Shown piece after piece: positions 21,341 to 27,241 of a stretch of 36,517 bases of DNA. Made by a program: the position numbers and the translations under genes. The notes beneath the pieces are model-generated. The model searched no databases. It had not been told where the DNA came from and saw only the letters and a list, made by a program, of their open reading frames with translations. Within the stretch, counting starts at the first letter, position 1. Each line of letters starts with the position of its first letter. Origin of the DNA: a virus; IMG/VR virus record IMGVR_UViG_3300009151_000186, positions 1-36,517 of that record; one strand, written 5' to 3'.

Positions 21341-21348
21341 TATTTATT
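21341..21348 (-). promoter_or_regulatory. Late promoter-like box AATAAATA before gp19
   Basis: 7 of 8 matches to TATAAATA on the minus strand, overlapping the gp18 stop and about 20 bp before the gp19 ATG. It would allow tube protein to be made in excess of sheath. Confidence 0.45.
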
Positions 21349-23107
21349 ACGCTGTGGTATTAGTAATTGTTGAAAAACTAACACCTGTGCCAACTGCAAT
21401 AAAATTCAACTGGATAAAGTTGATTGACCTAGCGGGTTGGATATAAATGTCACCAACAAATGTATTGCTATCAATGATCTGCGGAGTATTATTTGTAGAA
21501 TCACAAACAACTTGGAATGCAGTAATACCGCGTTGAGCTTGAACACTACGTAAGAATGGCGTAACTAGCGATACAAACTGAGCTTGTGTGAAAGCATCAT
21601 TGAATTCAAACAACGAATACTGTGCAGCTTTAGCGATTGCCTGTTCTAATGTAATGAACAATCTACGAACGTTGATTCTATCGAATGCTGATGGTTGCGT
21701 TTGCATTGTCTTGTCACCGAACAATACAGTTCCTTGCCCCGGGAAGGATGAAACTGGATTAATACCTACTTGATACAATGCATCTCTACCCGCTTGGTTA
21801 GGATTCCATGCCAGTTTAATTACGTTCTTGATTACGCCCCTATTGTAACCTGCTGGTGACCACCATGGATTATTTACTGAGTCTGTATATACACACAGGC
21901 CTGCAATGTCACCATTCAACGGCACCCAACGATATGTGTTGTTGTATCTATCAAACATATACTTCCAACCAGAATCAGCAAAACCGTAACTACCTTTAGG
22001 TCCGCCAGTTACTGAACTTAACCCTGCCATCCATGAAAGCACATCTTGTTGGATATTAGCATTATTAACAACAGATACAAGTGGTGGAGAAACAAATGCA
22101 ACACAATCTTTACGAGTTGAAGCCATATTAATAGCGGCCAGTTGTACAGTGTTACTGGTAGCTGGACCTGTCATCAATAAAGAAACCGTGGTTTGTGCAG
22201 GATCCGCAAAATAATTCATTGCGGTAATAATGTTAGCATCTGTTATCGTAACATCTGTGCCGCCAGCTAATGTGGATGTATAAGACCCGACCAATGTTGC
22301 AAAATTAGTGTTCGCAGCTGGTCTACCCCATGTTGCTGAAGTAGCACTGTAGTTTACAGGATCCATTGCAAAAATGTAATTAGACTTAGTAAAAATTGCA
22401 TTCTTGTAATAATTAGACAAGCCTGAAGAATCTACACTATCTATAGCTTTAGATAGATATGGATATACTTCTAGAACAGTACCCTTAGTGCCGCTGAATA
22501 ACCCACCAGTATCTACAACTGCAATGTGGATTTGGTCATTTGCTGCACCTTGTTGTGCGGCCTTATATGTTGTGCTAGGTAAGCCATTAAAGTATCCGGC
22601 TAATGAAACATTTGGTAATGCCGTTCCTGCACTAGTAACTGCAACGTTCCATTCAGCAAATGCTTGAGCACTAGAACCTGCATCAATTACAGAAACTGTT
22701 AATGAATTTCCTAAAGCTCCAAAATGTCGAGCAATGAAAGGACCATAAGCATTTCCATTTGGTCCAGACAGATACGAATATTGATATACGTCCCTATTTG
22801 CTACTTGGATTGTTACCGAAGTATTGGATGTACTATTATAACTGGCCGCATTAATTGCGCGGGACACTTGTAGGTTGTTGCCATAAGCTAAGAATGATGC
22901 TGCAGTGAAGAACGAAGCGGCAGTATTGTTGTCTGGTGCACCATACATGCTGATAAGTGTTTTTTCATTGTCAATCGTAACAATTCTTCCTGCCGGACCC
23001 CAGGTAAAAGGACCTGCGTAAGCACCGGCGGTAGATACAACTGAAGGTACTATAGTAGTTAAGTTAACTTCTGTTATAACAGGGCCTGGAGATAATTGAG
23101 CTGCCAT
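21347..23107 (-). CDS. 18: Tail sheath protein gp18
   Basis: 586 residues. The start 'LSPGPVITEVNLTTIVPSV' and 'GAYAGPFTWGPAGRI' are typical of T4-type sheath, as are 'CVAFVSPPL' and the C-terminal core 'DRINVRRLFITLEQAIAKAAQY'. The contractile sheath drives injection. The middle (about 90-280) is the variable outward-facing part. AAGGAG and an exact late box lie upstream. Shorter than T4 gp18 (659 aa), in line with marine relatives. Confidence 0.97.
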   Translation of the reverse strand: MAAQLSPGPVITEVNLTTIVPSVVSTAGAYAGPFTWGPAGRIVTIDNEKTLISMYGAPDNNTAASFFTAASFLAYGNNLQVSRAINAASYNSTSNTSVTIQVANRDVYQYSYLSGPNGNAYGPFIARHFGALGNSLTVSVIDAGSSAQAFAEWNVAVTSAGTALPNVSLAGYFNGLPSTTYKAAQQGAANDQIHIAVVDTGGLFSGTKGTVLEVYPYLSKAIDSVDSSGLSNYYKNAIFTKSNYIFAMDPVNYSATSATWGRPAANTNFATLVGSYTSTLAGGTDVTITDANIITAMNYFADPAQTTVSLLMTGPATSNTVQLAAINMASTRKDCVAFVSPPLVSVVNNANIQQDVLSWMAGLSSVTGGPKGSYGFADSGWKYMFDRYNNTYRWVPLNGDIAGLCVYTDSVNNPWWSPAGYNRGVIKNVIKLAWNPNQAGRDALYQVGINPVSSFPGQGTVLFGDKTMQTQPSAFDRINVRRLFITLEQAIAKAAQYSLFEFNDAFTQAQFVSLVTPFLRSVQAQRGITAFQVVCDSTNNTPQIIDSNTFVGDIYIQPARSINFIQLNFIAVGTGVSFSTITNTTA

Positions 23108-23157: not shown

Positions 23158-23165
23158 TATTTATA
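23158..23165 (-). promoter_or_regulatory. T4-type late promoter for gp18
   Basis: Exact TATAAATA on the minus strand about 50 bp before the gp18 ATG. An extended -10 motif (TGG-TATAAT) follows at about 23144-23149 without a -35, which may be incidental. Confidence 0.75.
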
Positions 23166-23176
23166 ATACGCGGTCT

Positions 23177-24382
23177 TTAGAGATTTCTCATCATGTCTCT
23201 GGTCCATGAGCCGTAAGTATCTCCTCCATTCGCTGTTTCCCAAACGTCACCTCCAACAACTTCAAAGTCGTTTTCTAGCCCGTCTTCTATAATTGGTTCA
23301 AGTAGTGCTTCATCATCAATTTGATTCATACTTTCTAATTGAATCTGTTTACGGATATCGTGACTTACAATTTCTTTGAAATATTTCTGTGTCGTTACCC
23401 ATGCAAATAATACCAGTGTCATAACTAGGTCATCATTTGCACCCTCTTCAGCTTTGAAAGAATTCTTTTCTGCTACAAATGTAGTCAATTCTGAAATTGT
23501 ATCAAAGTCGTTTGTTATTAATCGGTCACCTTCCAACAACATCTTTAAGTTGGAGCAACCAATGCGTTTGACTTGCGGTGACATTTTAACACCTAACTGC
23601 ACACCTCTAGCAAAACCTGCAGATAGTTGTTGTGGTTTTTTGTTGCCTGTGAATACTTTCCATAAGTTTTCGTATTCTAATTCTGAATGTAGAATTTCTG
23701 CAACTTGTGGAGTGTTGTTGATTTCTATTAGAATGTACGCATCATTATATAGCCGTGCTGCGTTGTATATCATAGTAGGGAATAACAACGGTGAAACTGA
23801 AGAACTGCTGTACTTGGCCACTTGTTTATATGGCATTTTTGATATATCGAATACTGAGAATGCGGAAGCGTCCATGTTCCTGCCCTCAGAAACGTCTACT
23901 GTCATTGCGTATAGATGATCCTTGACTGTATCTCCATCATCTTTGATTGGTTGCTCATATATCTTCATCTTGTCATGTTCATACACAGGATCAACATATG
24001 TCAATTGTTGTAATTTTTGGCCAGATATCAGTGTGTTTGTAGAACCCAAGAATTCACAATTGTGAGACACAACTCCATTAGAATAAAATTGGTATGCTTC
24101 TACACCAACAACATCCAAAAATTCAAATTTACCTTCTATGTAATCTATATTGAATAATGAAACATAATCATTTTTTGTTTTTATCTTATCATCAAAGGTT
24201 AACTCCACGGCTTTTTTCCAACCAGATTCTGTCAAAAATTGATGTAAAGTTGAACACTCCACATGTTTACCGTCGCATAAATCCAATACAATTTTTCCAG
24301 ACTTTTTAACTGATTGTACACCTTTAAAATTTTTGAATCCGGCCGGCGTTAGTATTTCATATTCACTTTGTTCATAGAACAT
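23177..24382 (-). CDS. 17: Terminase large subunit gp17, C-terminal half with C-intein
   Basis: 401 residues. Residues 1-108 are a C-intein: 'ILTPAGFKNFKGVQSV', block B-like 'CSTLHQFL' (His47) and the terminal 'YSNGVVSHN' with His107-Asn108. Cys109 (+1) opens the extein 'CEFLGSTNTLISG', which continues the T4 gp17 sequence. The RNase H-like nuclease follows, with likely metal ligands D163 ('MTVDVSEG'), E220 ('ILIEINN') and D317/D318 ('GANDDLVMTL'). Packaging activity needs joining to the N-half encoded at 24959-25852; spliced length would be 559 aa. The ATG overlaps the HNH gene end by 11 bp, so the halves are translated separately from one mRNA. Confidence 0.95.
   Translation of the reverse strand: MFYEQSEYEILTPAGFKNFKGVQSVKKSGKIVLDLCDGKHVECSTLHQFLTESGWKKAVELTFDDKIKTKNDYVSLFNIDYIEGKFEFLDVVGVEAYQFYSNGVVSHNCEFLGSTNTLISGQKLQQLTYVDPVYEHDKMKIYEQPIKDDGDTVKDHLYAMTVDVSEGRNMDASAFSVFDISKMPYKQVAKYSSSSVSPLLFPTMIYNAARLYNDAYILIEINNTPQVAEILHSELEYENLWKVFTGNKKPQQLSAGFARGVQLGVKMSPQVKRIGCSNLKMLLEGDRLITNDFDTISELTTFVAEKNSFKAEEGANDDLVMTLVLFAWVTTQKYFKEIVSHDIRKQIQLESMNQIDDEALLEPIIEDGLENDFEVVGGDVWETANGGDTYGSWTRDMMRNL
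24059..24382 (-). other. C-intein coding segment (108 codons) of the split TerL intein
   Basis: It spans the start of the gene to Asn108, directly before Cys+1 of the extein. It begins with its own Met and holds most of the intein fold, including blocks B, F and G. The beginning and end resemble the AceL-TerL C-intein by eye (start MF..., 'GF.NF.G.Q.V', end 'NGVVSHN' followed by CEF). Confidence 0.93.
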
Positions 24383-24941
24383 TTCGTTTGCCTTTGATTA
24401 TGTTTATCATTTGTTTGTCTGATATGCAATATTTACTGTGATATGTTTTAGCAAATGCTGTCTCATAGCTTACAATTTTTCCATTTTTACTTTTTGTTCC
24501 GGCTTCAGGTAAGTTAGGTTTTTCGTTATATAGTGCAATAATTTCTTTACATTGTTCATCTTCCAATTTGCAATTATGCCTTTTGCCTTGCCGAACAGAA
24601 CTCATTTTTTCTATAGTTTCTACACTAAAACAATTTTTTTTATTTTTGTTCCATGGTATATTACCTTTTTTTGCGCCACCAACGCCGGGTCTTTTTTTGC
24701 CGGTCTGTAACTCTGAACTGTATTTTGGACCTAATCCTAATCTTTTTGATATTAAAGCCGCAGCAAACCAATCTTCTTGATTTAAATGAATTTCTAAGTG
24801 CTCACGTATAGTTAAAAGTTTCAAATTGGTTAAGTCGTCATTATTATGATTTCCATCTACATGGTGAATTTCATATGAAAACCCCATATCGTCTTTTGGT
24901 ATTGGTCCAAAATTTTTTATCCATAATTGGCGGTAGTTCAT
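24372..24941 (-). CDS. Free-standing HNH homing endonuclease between the intein halves
   Basis: 189 residues. HNH core 'YEIHHVDGNHNNDDLTNL' (H26, H27, N39) with 'LTIREHLEIH' (H48, H52). Next comes a NUMOD3-like DNA-binding stretch ('GNIPWNKNKK' and 'SVETIEKMSSVRQGKRH'). The C-terminus ('ISDKQMINIIKGKRN') looks like a NUMOD1/HTH module. It has GGAA before its ATG, 17 bp after the N-half stop, and overlaps the C-half start. It probably cuts intein-less terL alleles and so spreads the whole cassette. It seems intact, and its AT-rich, Lys-rich composition differs from the neighbouring terminase parts. Confidence 0.92.
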   Translation of the reverse strand: MNYRQLWIKNFGPIPKDDMGFSYEIHHVDGNHNNDDLTNLKLLTIREHLEIHLNQEDWFAAALISKRLGLGPKYSSELQTGKKRPGVGGAKKGNIPWNKNKKNCFSVETIEKMSSVRQGKRHNCKLEDEQCKEIIALYNEKPNLPEAGTKSKNGKIVSYETAFAKTYHSKYCISDKQMINIIKGKRNVL

Positions 24942-24958
24942 AGCATTTCCAAGGAAGT

Positions 24959-25852
24959 TTAACTCATATTATTTAGTAATTCTTTGAGTTTAACTTCCTT
25001 GACAGTATTTGTTAATTTATCTTTAATCGTCACCACAGTTTCACCGTCAAGGCACTCAAACTCTTGTCGGAACTGTTCTTGAGAAGTGTTCCGAATAGTT
25101 TCTTCTTTCCATTTCTCATCTCTTCCTGGCACCATGGACCAATGAATTTCAAACGGTTGATATCCGTTTTTCTTATTGATTGCATCCATCCACAATTTGT
25201 AGAATAGATTCATACCATTCGGTGTAGATACGATAATGATCTTGGTTGTTTTACCCGAAGAAATAACTGGATACACCGAGTTGAAGAACTCATCAGCAAT
25301 ATTGGCTGGAACGAAAGCAAATTCGTCCAAGAATACTGCATTAAAACTTCCTCCACGAACAGCAGAAGATGATGTAGACGAGGCCATAATCTTAGAACCA
25401 TTTTCTAGTTCTACGTTACCTTTGTTCCATGTAATGATGCCCTGTTGCAGCCATTCTGGTAAGTTTTCATATGCAAGTTGGTACTTTGCTAGAATGTCCC
25501 GAGCAAGTGAGCCTTTATTGGCAAGAACTGCAATATTTTGAGAATCTGTAAACAATGTTAACCAAAGGAGATATGCAACTGATGTTGTAGTTTTTCCAAC
25601 CTGCCGCGGGCATTTGGTAATAACGAAACGATTTTGTTGAAACAGCCTTAACATCTGTTTCTGAAAGTCCCACATCTCAAAGGGCATTAAGCCTCGGTCG
25701 ACGTTGACGATTTTAATATAATGGGTTGCAAAATAAACTGGATCTTTTGCACACTTCATATACTCTTCAACTTGTTCTTGCGTGTAGTTGAGTTGGACAC
25801 CAGCCCTTTTTAGAAGTGGATTATCACGATACGAATTTTTATTAGAAATCAT
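24959..25852 (-). CDS. 17: Terminase large subunit gp17, N-terminal half with N-intein
   Basis: 297 residues. Residues 1-266 are the packaging ATPase: Walker A CPRQVGKTT (81-89), Walker B 'AVFLDEFAF' (D176-E177) and motif III 'VSTPNG'. The extein stops at 'QEQFRQEFE', exactly where T4 gp17 continues with C-E-F-L-G. Residues 267-297 (CLDGETVVTIKDK... to LLNNMS) are an N-intein with catalytic Cys267 and a block A pattern. Trans-splicing with 23177-24382 would rebuild a normal terminase. It starts with an ATGA overlap of gp16. Confidence 0.95.
   Translation of the reverse strand: MISNKNSYRDNPLLKRAGVQLNYTQEQVEEYMKCAKDPVYFATHYIKIVNVDRGLMPFEMWDFQKQMLRLFQQNRFVITKCPRQVGKTTTSVAYLLWLTLFTDSQNIAVLANKGSLARDILAKYQLAYENLPEWLQQGIITWNKGNVELENGSKIMASSTSSSAVRGGSFNAVFLDEFAFVPANIADEFFNSVYPVISSGKTTKIIIVSTPNGMNLFYKLWMDAINKKNGYQPFEIHWSMVPGRDEKWKEETIRNTSQEQFRQEFECLDGETVVTIKDKLTNTVKEVKLKELLNNMS
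24962..25054 (-). other. N-intein coding segment (31 codons) of the split TerL intein
   Basis: It runs from Cys267 to the last residue before the stop. At 31 residues it is far shorter than the roughly 100 residues of ordinary split inteins and close to the 25 of the AceL-TerL N-intein. The split lies just after block A. Confidence 0.92.
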
Positions 25853-26265
25853 CTATTGCCTTTGATCAACTCACTCAATTCTTTTGTGCTTCCAACAAAG
25901 ATGGCTTTATCGATGGTTGTGCCACCAATTTCTTGTTTTTTATCCATATCTCTCATTTGTTTTTGCACTGCAAGCAATTCTTTATTTGCATCAACCATGT
26001 TTTTGAATATTGTACCGTATACTTCAAATGCCCTGGGATGTTGGCCTGCTTTCGCTATCATCAATATTTCATCCATTGCATCTTTACCCTGATCTAACAG
26101 GTCTTGTAGATTTGTTTTAGTTTGCTCATACGCATCAGACAAATCTTCTTCTAAATCTGGAGCAGTTGAAGTAACTACAGGCAGATTAATTTTTTTGACT
26201 GCGGGTAAAACTTTAGGTTCTGAGACCTGAAATATTTCACCCATAGATTTTTCAAAGTTATTCAT
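25849..26265 (-). CDS. 16: Terminase small subunit gp16
   Basis: 138 residues from ATG at 26265; a TTG at 26277 is in frame but less likely. Helical core 'LSDAYEQTKTNLQDLLDQGKDAMDEI', 'HPRAFEVYGTIFKNMVDANKELL' and the end 'KAIFVGSTKELSELIK' match T4 gp16 ('HPRAYEV', 'NAVFVGSTTDLQKML'). It recognises phage DNA and stimulates the gp17 ATPase. ATGA-coupled to the N-half of gp17. Confidence 0.93.
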   Translation of the reverse strand: MNNFEKSMGEIFQVSEPKVLPAVKKINLPVVTSTAPDLEEDLSDAYEQTKTNLQDLLDQGKDAMDEILMIAKAGQHPRAFEVYGTIFKNMVDANKELLAVQKQMRDMDKKQEIGGTTIDKAIFVGSTKELSELIKGNR

Positions 26266-26269
26266 TATG

Positions 26270-27241
26270 TTATTCAATTATGGTTGTGGTGTATGTATAA
26301 CTGCTATTAGAGTTGGCATTACTTGGATTTGGTGTAATAGTAATTTTACTGTACTGCGTTGGTGAAACTGCATATGAACTGAATAAGTAATTGGCATTTG
26401 TTATTTTACCAATCACTGGTTGATTCGATACAAAATTGCCAGTTAATCCGGTTGTAGTTAAAACATTATTATACCAGCTTAATACTTTAGCTGAAGCAGT
26501 TGATAAGGATGAATTGGTTCCTTGGTATACAATCTCACCCAATTGGTAATTCCCAGTACCACCTGCAACCATATTAAATGCCACAGATTGCAATTCATTT
26601 GGATCATTATATACGTTAGTAATTGATGTGTTGATTAATCCTGTAGAACTTATTGCACCAAAGATAAATCCTTTGACGGTAAAGTTTAGTGTCCAAATAA
26701 CCATTCTAGTATCTGCTTCTTTGTCACCTTCATATGTGACTTCATAATCGGTATTGTTTAGTATAATTGGAACTTCTTTGATGATACCCAATTCTGGAAT
26801 CATGTTGACTTTAATTGTATAGTCTGGTGCAAAATACGGTAAAATGTGTTCAATAATCTGATTACCGTCTTCAATATTTCTCACATAAAGATACAATGAA
26901 AAATCAAAGTTGTATGGCACCGGATTATATTGGGATACTACACCTGAACTGGTTTGTGCAAAATTCTTGCCACTAGTGAATTGTTTTCTGGTAGAATCAT
27001 ATGCCAAACCATTCATTTCATATGACATTCTAGGCAATGTTATTTGGACTTTTTTATCTAGTGTTGGATCACCCTGTAGTCGCATAACATACAATTCTTT
27101 AGTTGCATAATCTATAGGAACAATAAACCGTTCTTGTTCCGTTTCGTCTGGATTATACCGCAACAACGTGATTGAATTGAACAAGTTACCAAAGGCGACT
27201 GTCAATTTTCGGATCATTCTATTGTATGTAATATTTGACAT
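26270..27241 (-). CDS. 15: Tail sheath terminator/stabiliser gp15
   Basis: 323 residues. 'YNRMIRKLTVAFGNLFNSITLLRY', 'IVPIDYATKELYVMRLQGDP', 'LPRMSYEMNGLAYDSTRK' and 'VPYNFDFSLYLYVRN' identify gp15, which caps the sheath and joins the tail to the head. From about 205 the protein has an extra beta-type module ('YQLGEIVYQGTNSSLSTASAKVLSWYNN' in parts) not in T4 gp15 (272 aa). The same pattern ends gp14. Its ATG shares bases with the gp14 stop (TAATG). Confidence 0.94.
   Translation of the reverse strand: MSNITYNRMIRKLTVAFGNLFNSITLLRYNPDETEQERFIVPIDYATKELYVMRLQGDPTLDKKVQITLPRMSYEMNGLAYDSTRKQFTSGKNFAQTSSGVVSQYNPVPYNFDFSLYLYVRNIEDGNQIIEHILPYFAPDYTIKVNMIPELGIIKEVPIILNNTDYEVTYEGDKEADTRMVIWTLNFTVKGFIFGAISSTGLINTSITNVYNDPNELQSVAFNMVAGGTGNYQLGEIVYQGTNSSLSTASAKVLSWYNNVLTTTGLTGNFVSNQPVIGKITNANYLFSSYAVSPTQYSKITITPNPSNANSNSSYTYTTTIIE

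Follow-up and report, generated by a model that had tools for sequence, protein, structure and literature searches.

How does an uncultured T4-like phage make its large terminase when the gene comes in two pieces with an endonuclease gene between them? The question is raised by a 36,517-base virus record (IMGVR_UViG_3300009151_000186, positions 1 to 36,517; this whole stretch is called the window, and all positions refer to it), whose minus strand carries, in this order, the N-terminal part of the large terminase TerL (TerL-N, 24959–25852), an open reading frame (ORF) for an HNH endonuclease (24372–24941) and the C-terminal part (TerL-C, 23177–24382). With a probability of roughly 0.88, we read the locus as a mobile cassette of split intein and homing endonuclease, inserted between TerL residues 266 and 267, which would spread by homing while trans-splicing restores the terminase. 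The features on which the argument draws are the following, with the neighboring genes last.

25055–25852, minus strand: TerL N-extein, residues 1–266, the ATPase half, at the start of gene 24959–25852 (Terminase_6N, E 5.7e-24, above the Pfam cutoff; 90% identity to the intact TerL of locus L005)
24962–25054, minus strand: N-terminal intein piece (IntN), 31 residues from Cys1, stop codon at 24959–24961 (begins with C-x-x-G-[DE]-T, like that of other carriers; BLAST match to IntN of L002 and L004)
24693–24941, minus strand: HNH nuclease half, residues 1–83 of the 189-residue endonuclease of gene 24372–24941 (HNH_3, E 2.3e-7, above the Pfam cutoff; phrog_12324, E 2e-22)
24375–24692, minus strand: putative DNA-targeting half, residues 84–189 of the endonuclease (51% identity over 99 residues to the GIY-YIG ORF of L188; tree)
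24372–24382, minus strand: overlap of 11 nucleotides (nt) between the HNH stop and the start of the IntC gene (from the sequence)
24059–24382, minus strand: C-terminal intein piece (IntC), 108 residues ending in VVSHN, with penultimate His and last Asn (CatC of 6dsl, E 1.6e-7; rank 1 in fold search)
23180–24058, minus strand: TerL C-extein, residues 267–559, the nuclease half, from Cys+1 (Terminase_6C, E 1.7e-10, above the Pfam cutoff)
25849–26277, minus strand: small terminase, adjoining TerL-N (phrog_445, E 1.5e-29)
21347–23107, minus strand: tail sheath (phrog_23, E 1e-119)

The last two genes flank the three-gene region and place it within a T4-like structural gene cluster. With its Terminase_6N and Terminase_6C domains and the adjoining small terminase, TerL is a large terminase of the T4 type.

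A split intein in the large terminase

TerL-N has 297 residues; the first 266 end in RQEFE, and the other 31 form a tail, CLDGETVVTIKDKLTNTVKEVKLKELLNNMS, that starts with Cys directly after FE and reads CLDGETVV...NNMS. The 401 residues of TerL-C open with 108 that end in YSNGVVSHN and are followed by CEFLGS, and the predicted spliced TerL has 266 + 293 = 559 residues. An initial annotation, made from the letters of the window, had given these ORFs and coordinates, the 31/108 split, the FE and HN/CEFLG junctions (the slash marks the break) and the length of 559, and it was right to the residue. It had also proposed an atypically split intein related to AceL-TerL, to be checked by a homology search and a structure model, and both bore this out. 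Compared with PDB sequences, IntC matched CatC of 6dsl, part of the atypical TerL split intein Cat, and an AlphaFold2 model of IntC alone, without IntN, reached a pLDDT of 92 and found 6dsl as its top match in a fold search (E 2.1e-7, TM 0.82; HINT fold).

The window has the nucleophiles of the class (Cys1, the penultimate His, the last Asn and Cys+1); H47, D90 and S106-H107-N108 of IntC are invariant in 26 sequences, and Cys1 occurs together with Cys or Thr at +1 in all carriers of the HNH group and the GIY group. Purifying selection acts on IntC in relatives, with a ratio of nonsynonymous to synonymous substitution rates (dN/dS) of up to 0.24. Because IntC matches Cat in both sequence and fold, the two halves of TerL are most likely joined by trans-splicing; the initial annotation had supposed as much, and the homology of IntC, together with its kept catalytic residues, argues strongly for it.

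In the proposed mechanism, TerL-N with IntN and IntC with TerL-C would both be translated from a single late transcript, the 31-residue IntN would dock on the 108-residue IntC, and Cys1, His107/Asn108 and Cys+1 would catalyze class-1 trans-splicing to yield the 559-residue large terminase. The C-terminal half of the HNH enzyme would recognize the intact TerL site and its N-terminal HNH domain would cut there; because repair follows this cut, IntN, the HNH gene and IntC would be copied as one unit. We infer both the cutting and the identity of the DNA-binding half. The HNH and IntC genes overlap by 1–29 nt in the HNH loci with both ends present, and the 11-nt overlap of the window likely reflects translational coupling.

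As a fractured gene with an atypical TerL split intein, the locus belongs to a known kind of element; its variant carries an HNH endonuclease of two parts. Fractured genes, in which a split intein interrupts a conserved gene and a separate endonuclease gene stands between the pieces, were reportedly described by Dassa and colleagues in 2009, mainly from phages, and about half of their endonucleases are said to be Vsr-like. The window has the broken gene, the split intein and the endonuclease ORF between the halves; its family differs in carrying a two-part HNH or GIY-YIG enzyme. Among the atypical TerL split inteins, AceL-TerL is divided 25/104, GOS-TerL 37/115 and Cat 30/104 (PMC11766414). 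The window resembles all three in the gene, in the short-N/long-C split and in Cys1/Cys+1, and we found in it the FE/C(E)FLGS site, the size, the homology and the nucleophiles of these inteins. Relatives whose IntC is 79%–89% identical to CatC are inserted at the same FE/CEFLGS site, whereas the IntC of such Cat-type loci is ∼35% identical to that of the window and their endonuclease is of the GIY-YIG type, not HNH. The Cat and AceL inteins of protein engineering are thereby tied to a natural endonuclease partner.

Spread of the cassette and competing explanations

We scanned IMG/VR for loci of this kind, keeping the best 80 per scan, so that locus counts are lower bounds. TerL was uninterrupted in at least 68 loci, with the same join (FE, then C or T, then EFLGS) and no scar, and was fractured at the window's site in at least 134 loci with a TerL IntC. 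IntN is 27–46 residues long, and IntC 93–109. Between the halves of these 134 we found a GIY-YIG enzyme (66 loci), an HNH enzyme (52), no endonuclease (six) or a Vsr-like ORF (one); the other nine, left unassigned, are mostly contig ends. Within the limits of their contigs, all 57 full-length relatives of the HNH protein (L082–L138) have IntN and/or IntC of TerL next to them, in the order TerL-N with IntN, HNH, IntC with TerL-C. Together with the 68 uninterrupted loci, they show that the arrangement goes beyond chance. The initial annotation had taken a 31/108 split with an HNH partner to be uncommon, which does not hold: with at least 52 of 134 fractured loci and 57 of 57 HNH relatives in a fractured TerL, such a partner occurs regularly. 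Nor had the annotation mentioned the GIY-YIG counterpart, the horizontal movement or the insertion-site copy in relatives, all described below.

The site is found in further states. L215 is nearly identical to L214 except that its endonuclease gene is cleanly absent while the halves are still separate genes, and the endonuclease is absent from L233 and L222 as well. L212 (2535–4571) has a contiguous mini-intein of 126 residues whose IntC part is identical to that of the split L214 at 95 of 97 positions, an apparent re-fusion of the split intein. One site is thus found empty, split with an HNH gene, split with a GIY-YIG gene, split but lacking an endonuclease, and re-fused as a mini-intein, a natural collection of states in which the way split inteins arise, spread and decay can be tested directly.

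IntN, endonuclease and IntC move horizontally as one unit, and they do so between genes of the phage packaging motor. The cassettes of three pairs of loci are 99.9% (L216/L227), 99.0% (L166/L190) and 97.2% (L188/L196) identical, whereas their exteins are only 69%–79% identical. In L188/L196, identity falls to 67% within the first 30 nt on each side of the cassette, and the conserved block of transferred copies ends exactly at the intein ends. The synonymous divergence (dS) of L166/L190 is 0.03 in the endonuclease and IntC, compared with 1.2–1.3 in the exteins. The window tells a similar story: its exteins fall in a clade (support 100/99) with 12 intact TerLs and with L001 and L003, of which it is the only HNH carrier, and its endonuclease groups, in a tree of C-terminal halves, with L082/L092 (98/90), loci with exteins distant from its own. 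Joining the window's exteins with L083/L092 was rejected (approximately unbiased [AU] test, p 8.6e-47), as was, for IntC, grouping with the nearest HNH-carrying relatives of the window's exteins (AU p 0.00115). Patchy presence, empty sites in relatives and horizontal transfer, the marks of a homing endonuclease, are thus all observed.

Several points weigh against a mobile split intein with its own homing enzyme. The intein pieces stay under the intein cutoff in Pfam (E 0.009–0.03), and IntC is ∼48% identical to the nearest relative found. The pairs with recent transfer are all of the GIY type, none of them HNH, and no co-conversion tract was seen beside transferred cassettes. A fold search with the model of the HNH protein, which has a low-confidence linker, gave no PDB fold at E <0.001, the best relevant match being I-HmuI (1u3e, E 1.9). 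We infer both the splicing reaction and the cutting with high confidence, from sequence comparisons and models.

The endonuclease might instead have broken TerL into halves that assemble unspliced, as in NrdA/mobE of phage Aeh1 and topoisomerase/mobA of T4, with the intein tails as relics. Working split phage enzymes without splicing are on record (PMC2988022), and the TerL break falls near the boundary between the ATPase and nuclease domains. We nevertheless hold this to be improbable: relics would hardly keep every catalytic residue in 26 IntCs or remain under strong purifying selection in relatives, the conserved block of transferred copies stops at the very ends of the intein, and the family includes a mini-intein in one piece (L212). 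The HNH protein could, on another account, be a packaging factor and not a homing enzyme, since HNH genes that adjoin terminase can have that role, as the HNH of HK97 does at cos (PMC10448857). That is very improbable, given close relatives that have an intact TerL and no HNH gene, and related fractured loci in which a GIY-YIG enzyme replaces HNH or in which the endonuclease is missing with both halves kept (L215, L233, L222). The chance that the halves are joined at the RNA level, by a group I intron or otherwise, with the endonuclease gene in an intron inside the intein, is close to nil. I-TevIII-like HNH enzymes do occur in group I introns, but an Rfam search of the whole window matched no family, and the 17-nt gap from the IntN stop to the HNH start, together with the 11-nt overlap of HNH and IntC genes, leaves no space for a ribozyme.

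A two-part endonuclease and a copy of its insertion site

The HNH enzyme of the window is built of two parts. Its residues 1–80 match phrog_12324 (intron-like DNA endonuclease) and are 51%–52% identical to I-TevIII-like homing endonucleases of phages, T4 I-TevIII among them, whereas beyond residue 80 no similarity to these enzymes was detected; no INPHARED isolate has a match that covers at least 80% of the protein. The HNH motif is intact, 20 homologs sharing H26, H27, N39, H48 and further residues without exception, and the endonuclease genes of relatives are under purifying selection (dN/dS 0.05–0.26). A scan of genome contigs with the HNH alignment, for homes in bacterial genomes, returned one partial hit.

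The loci whose IntC is close to CatC (L162–L241) have, where complete, an ORF of the same length, 189 residues, with a GIY-YIG domain (E 3e-8). The ORF of L188 is 51% identical to residues 84–182 of the HNH protein over 99 residues (E 4e-32), whereas a comparison of the N-terminal halves of GIY-YIG and HNH enzymes showed no relationship. The nuclease domain has been exchanged on a common C-terminal half, which probably targets DNA. Because the GIY group forms one side of a branch in the tree of C-terminal halves (98/93), one swap suffices for the distribution of the two types. A modular build is known from homing endonucleases at large (PMC2988022, PMC10448857); we found no account of such an exchange at a single split-intein site in the accessible literature, and there may be an earlier description of the HNH and GIY-YIG partners.

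In most relatives, the IntN stop is closely followed by a copy of the C-extein start. The copy reads TGTGAGTTTTTTGGATTATAAATA in the GIY group, at offset −5 in nearly all loci, and is similar to ACTGAATTTCTTGGATTTATAAATA in the Thr+1 HNH group, at offset +1 in nine out of nine. Its core matches at 11–12 of 12 positions in nearly all GIY and Thr+1 HNH loci, with p mostly at or near the floor of ∼0.0006, loci within one clade not being independent. The first codon tends to track the +1 residue (TGT or TGC with Cys; ACN or variants of one to two bases with Thr), the copy of the GIY group is better conserved than IntN third positions (0.95 versus 0.77), and no copy is present where the endonuclease gene is absent. 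In relatives the late promoter TATAAATA overlaps the copy at the place of the S-T-N codons, and it would take two C>T changes to turn the TerL codons TCTACAAATA into the T4 late promoter TTTATAAATA.

The window has the following candidate.

24948–24966, minus strand: putative decayed insertion-site copy (C-extein start), TGAGTT-AAACTT-CCTTGGA = TGARTT/YYTNGGN plus a 6-nt insertion

An ungapped search matched 10 of 12 positions there (p 0.09, not significant). With the gap, 13 of 13 match (p 0.003 with random stretches of all loci, 0.0008 with those of the window), which lends weak support because this match was devised after the relatives had been seen. TATAAATA is absent before the window's endonuclease gene, and a late-promoter-like TATAAATA is present at 23158–23165, just upstream of the tail sheath gene. 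The window's copy would be, at best, a promoterless relic.

In T4, a look-alike of the I-TevI homing site overlaps the enzyme's own late promoter, and I-TevI represses itself through it (PMC2988022). Relatives of the GIY and Thr+1 HNH groups have a site look-alike that overlaps TATAAATA directly before the endonuclease gene, and by this analogy we hypothesize that the copy may act as an operator for autorepression. The cassette differs in that its copy belongs to a split intein rather than a group I intron, and that the window has no promoter there. Tentatively, and at odds somewhat short of even, we suggest that the targeting half may steer a swappable nuclease, of HNH type in the lineage of the window and of GIY-YIG type in Cat-type loci, to the TerL site and may also bind a captured, decayed copy of that site before its own gene, where TerL codons have become a late promoter, thus shutting itself off; the window would represent a late state, with operator and promoter decayed and the enzyme on the terminase transcript. 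Two nuclease types that share a putative targeting half, and a site copy that sits at a promoter, suggest openings for studies of endonuclease evolution and self-control. The site copy may have been described earlier in the literature.

In locus L145 (3474–6945), an HNH relative lies near the neck genes, and TerL-N with IntN precedes TAATTCCTAGGAATTATAAATA and an ORF of GIY-YIG-like type; TAATTCCTAGGAATTATAAATA is, to judge by its letters, an insertion-site copy in another lineage.

Other interrupted terminase genes

As in the window, the TerL of several isolates is in pieces and accompanied by an endonuclease ORF. Vibrio phage VP-1 (L243, 1337–4679) is broken at the same site (D/CSFLGS); its IntN continues in frame into a GIY-YIG enzyme, and its IntC is a separate ORF. 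VP-1 also has an intein at Walker A, and its annotation misses the start of the IntC ORF. In E. coli phage HY03 (L244, 2007–4859), TerL is split at Walker B (DE/CAF) by another short-N split intein with a different endonuclease; Yersinia phage phiR1-RT (L246) and Pseudomonas phage PspYZU05 (L248) were assigned the Walker B split by the same gene layout as HY03. These three phages are cultured and tractable for tests of TerL trans-splicing. The TerL of C. coli phage IBB_35, also in pieces, has been described as carrying an intein plus an intron with an HNH gene (PMC3322345). Phage B23, a candidate for an intein at the window's site, was set aside: its intein is at Walker A and its FE/C site is uninterrupted.

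At the window's TerL site, L001 (2922–6185) has a GOS-TerL-like intein with Ser1 and a 386-residue DUF559/MTES_1575 endonuclease with a helix-turn-helix domain, which adds one more type, unrelated to the others, to the endonucleases of this site. The TerL of L003 (1598–5087) is in three pieces. Its first split intein is at Walker A (K/C), with a 44-residue IntN and a 312-residue DUF559-type endonuclease in between; the second, with Ser1, is at FE/C, where the two genes overlap and no endonuclease is present. By its gene structure, L003 would need two trans-splicing events per TerL protein. Two more loci have TerL inteins at other sites: L006 (2734–5523) a contiguous insert of ∼369 residues near residue 173, ending HQ/C, and L002 (927–2771) a Walker A intein.
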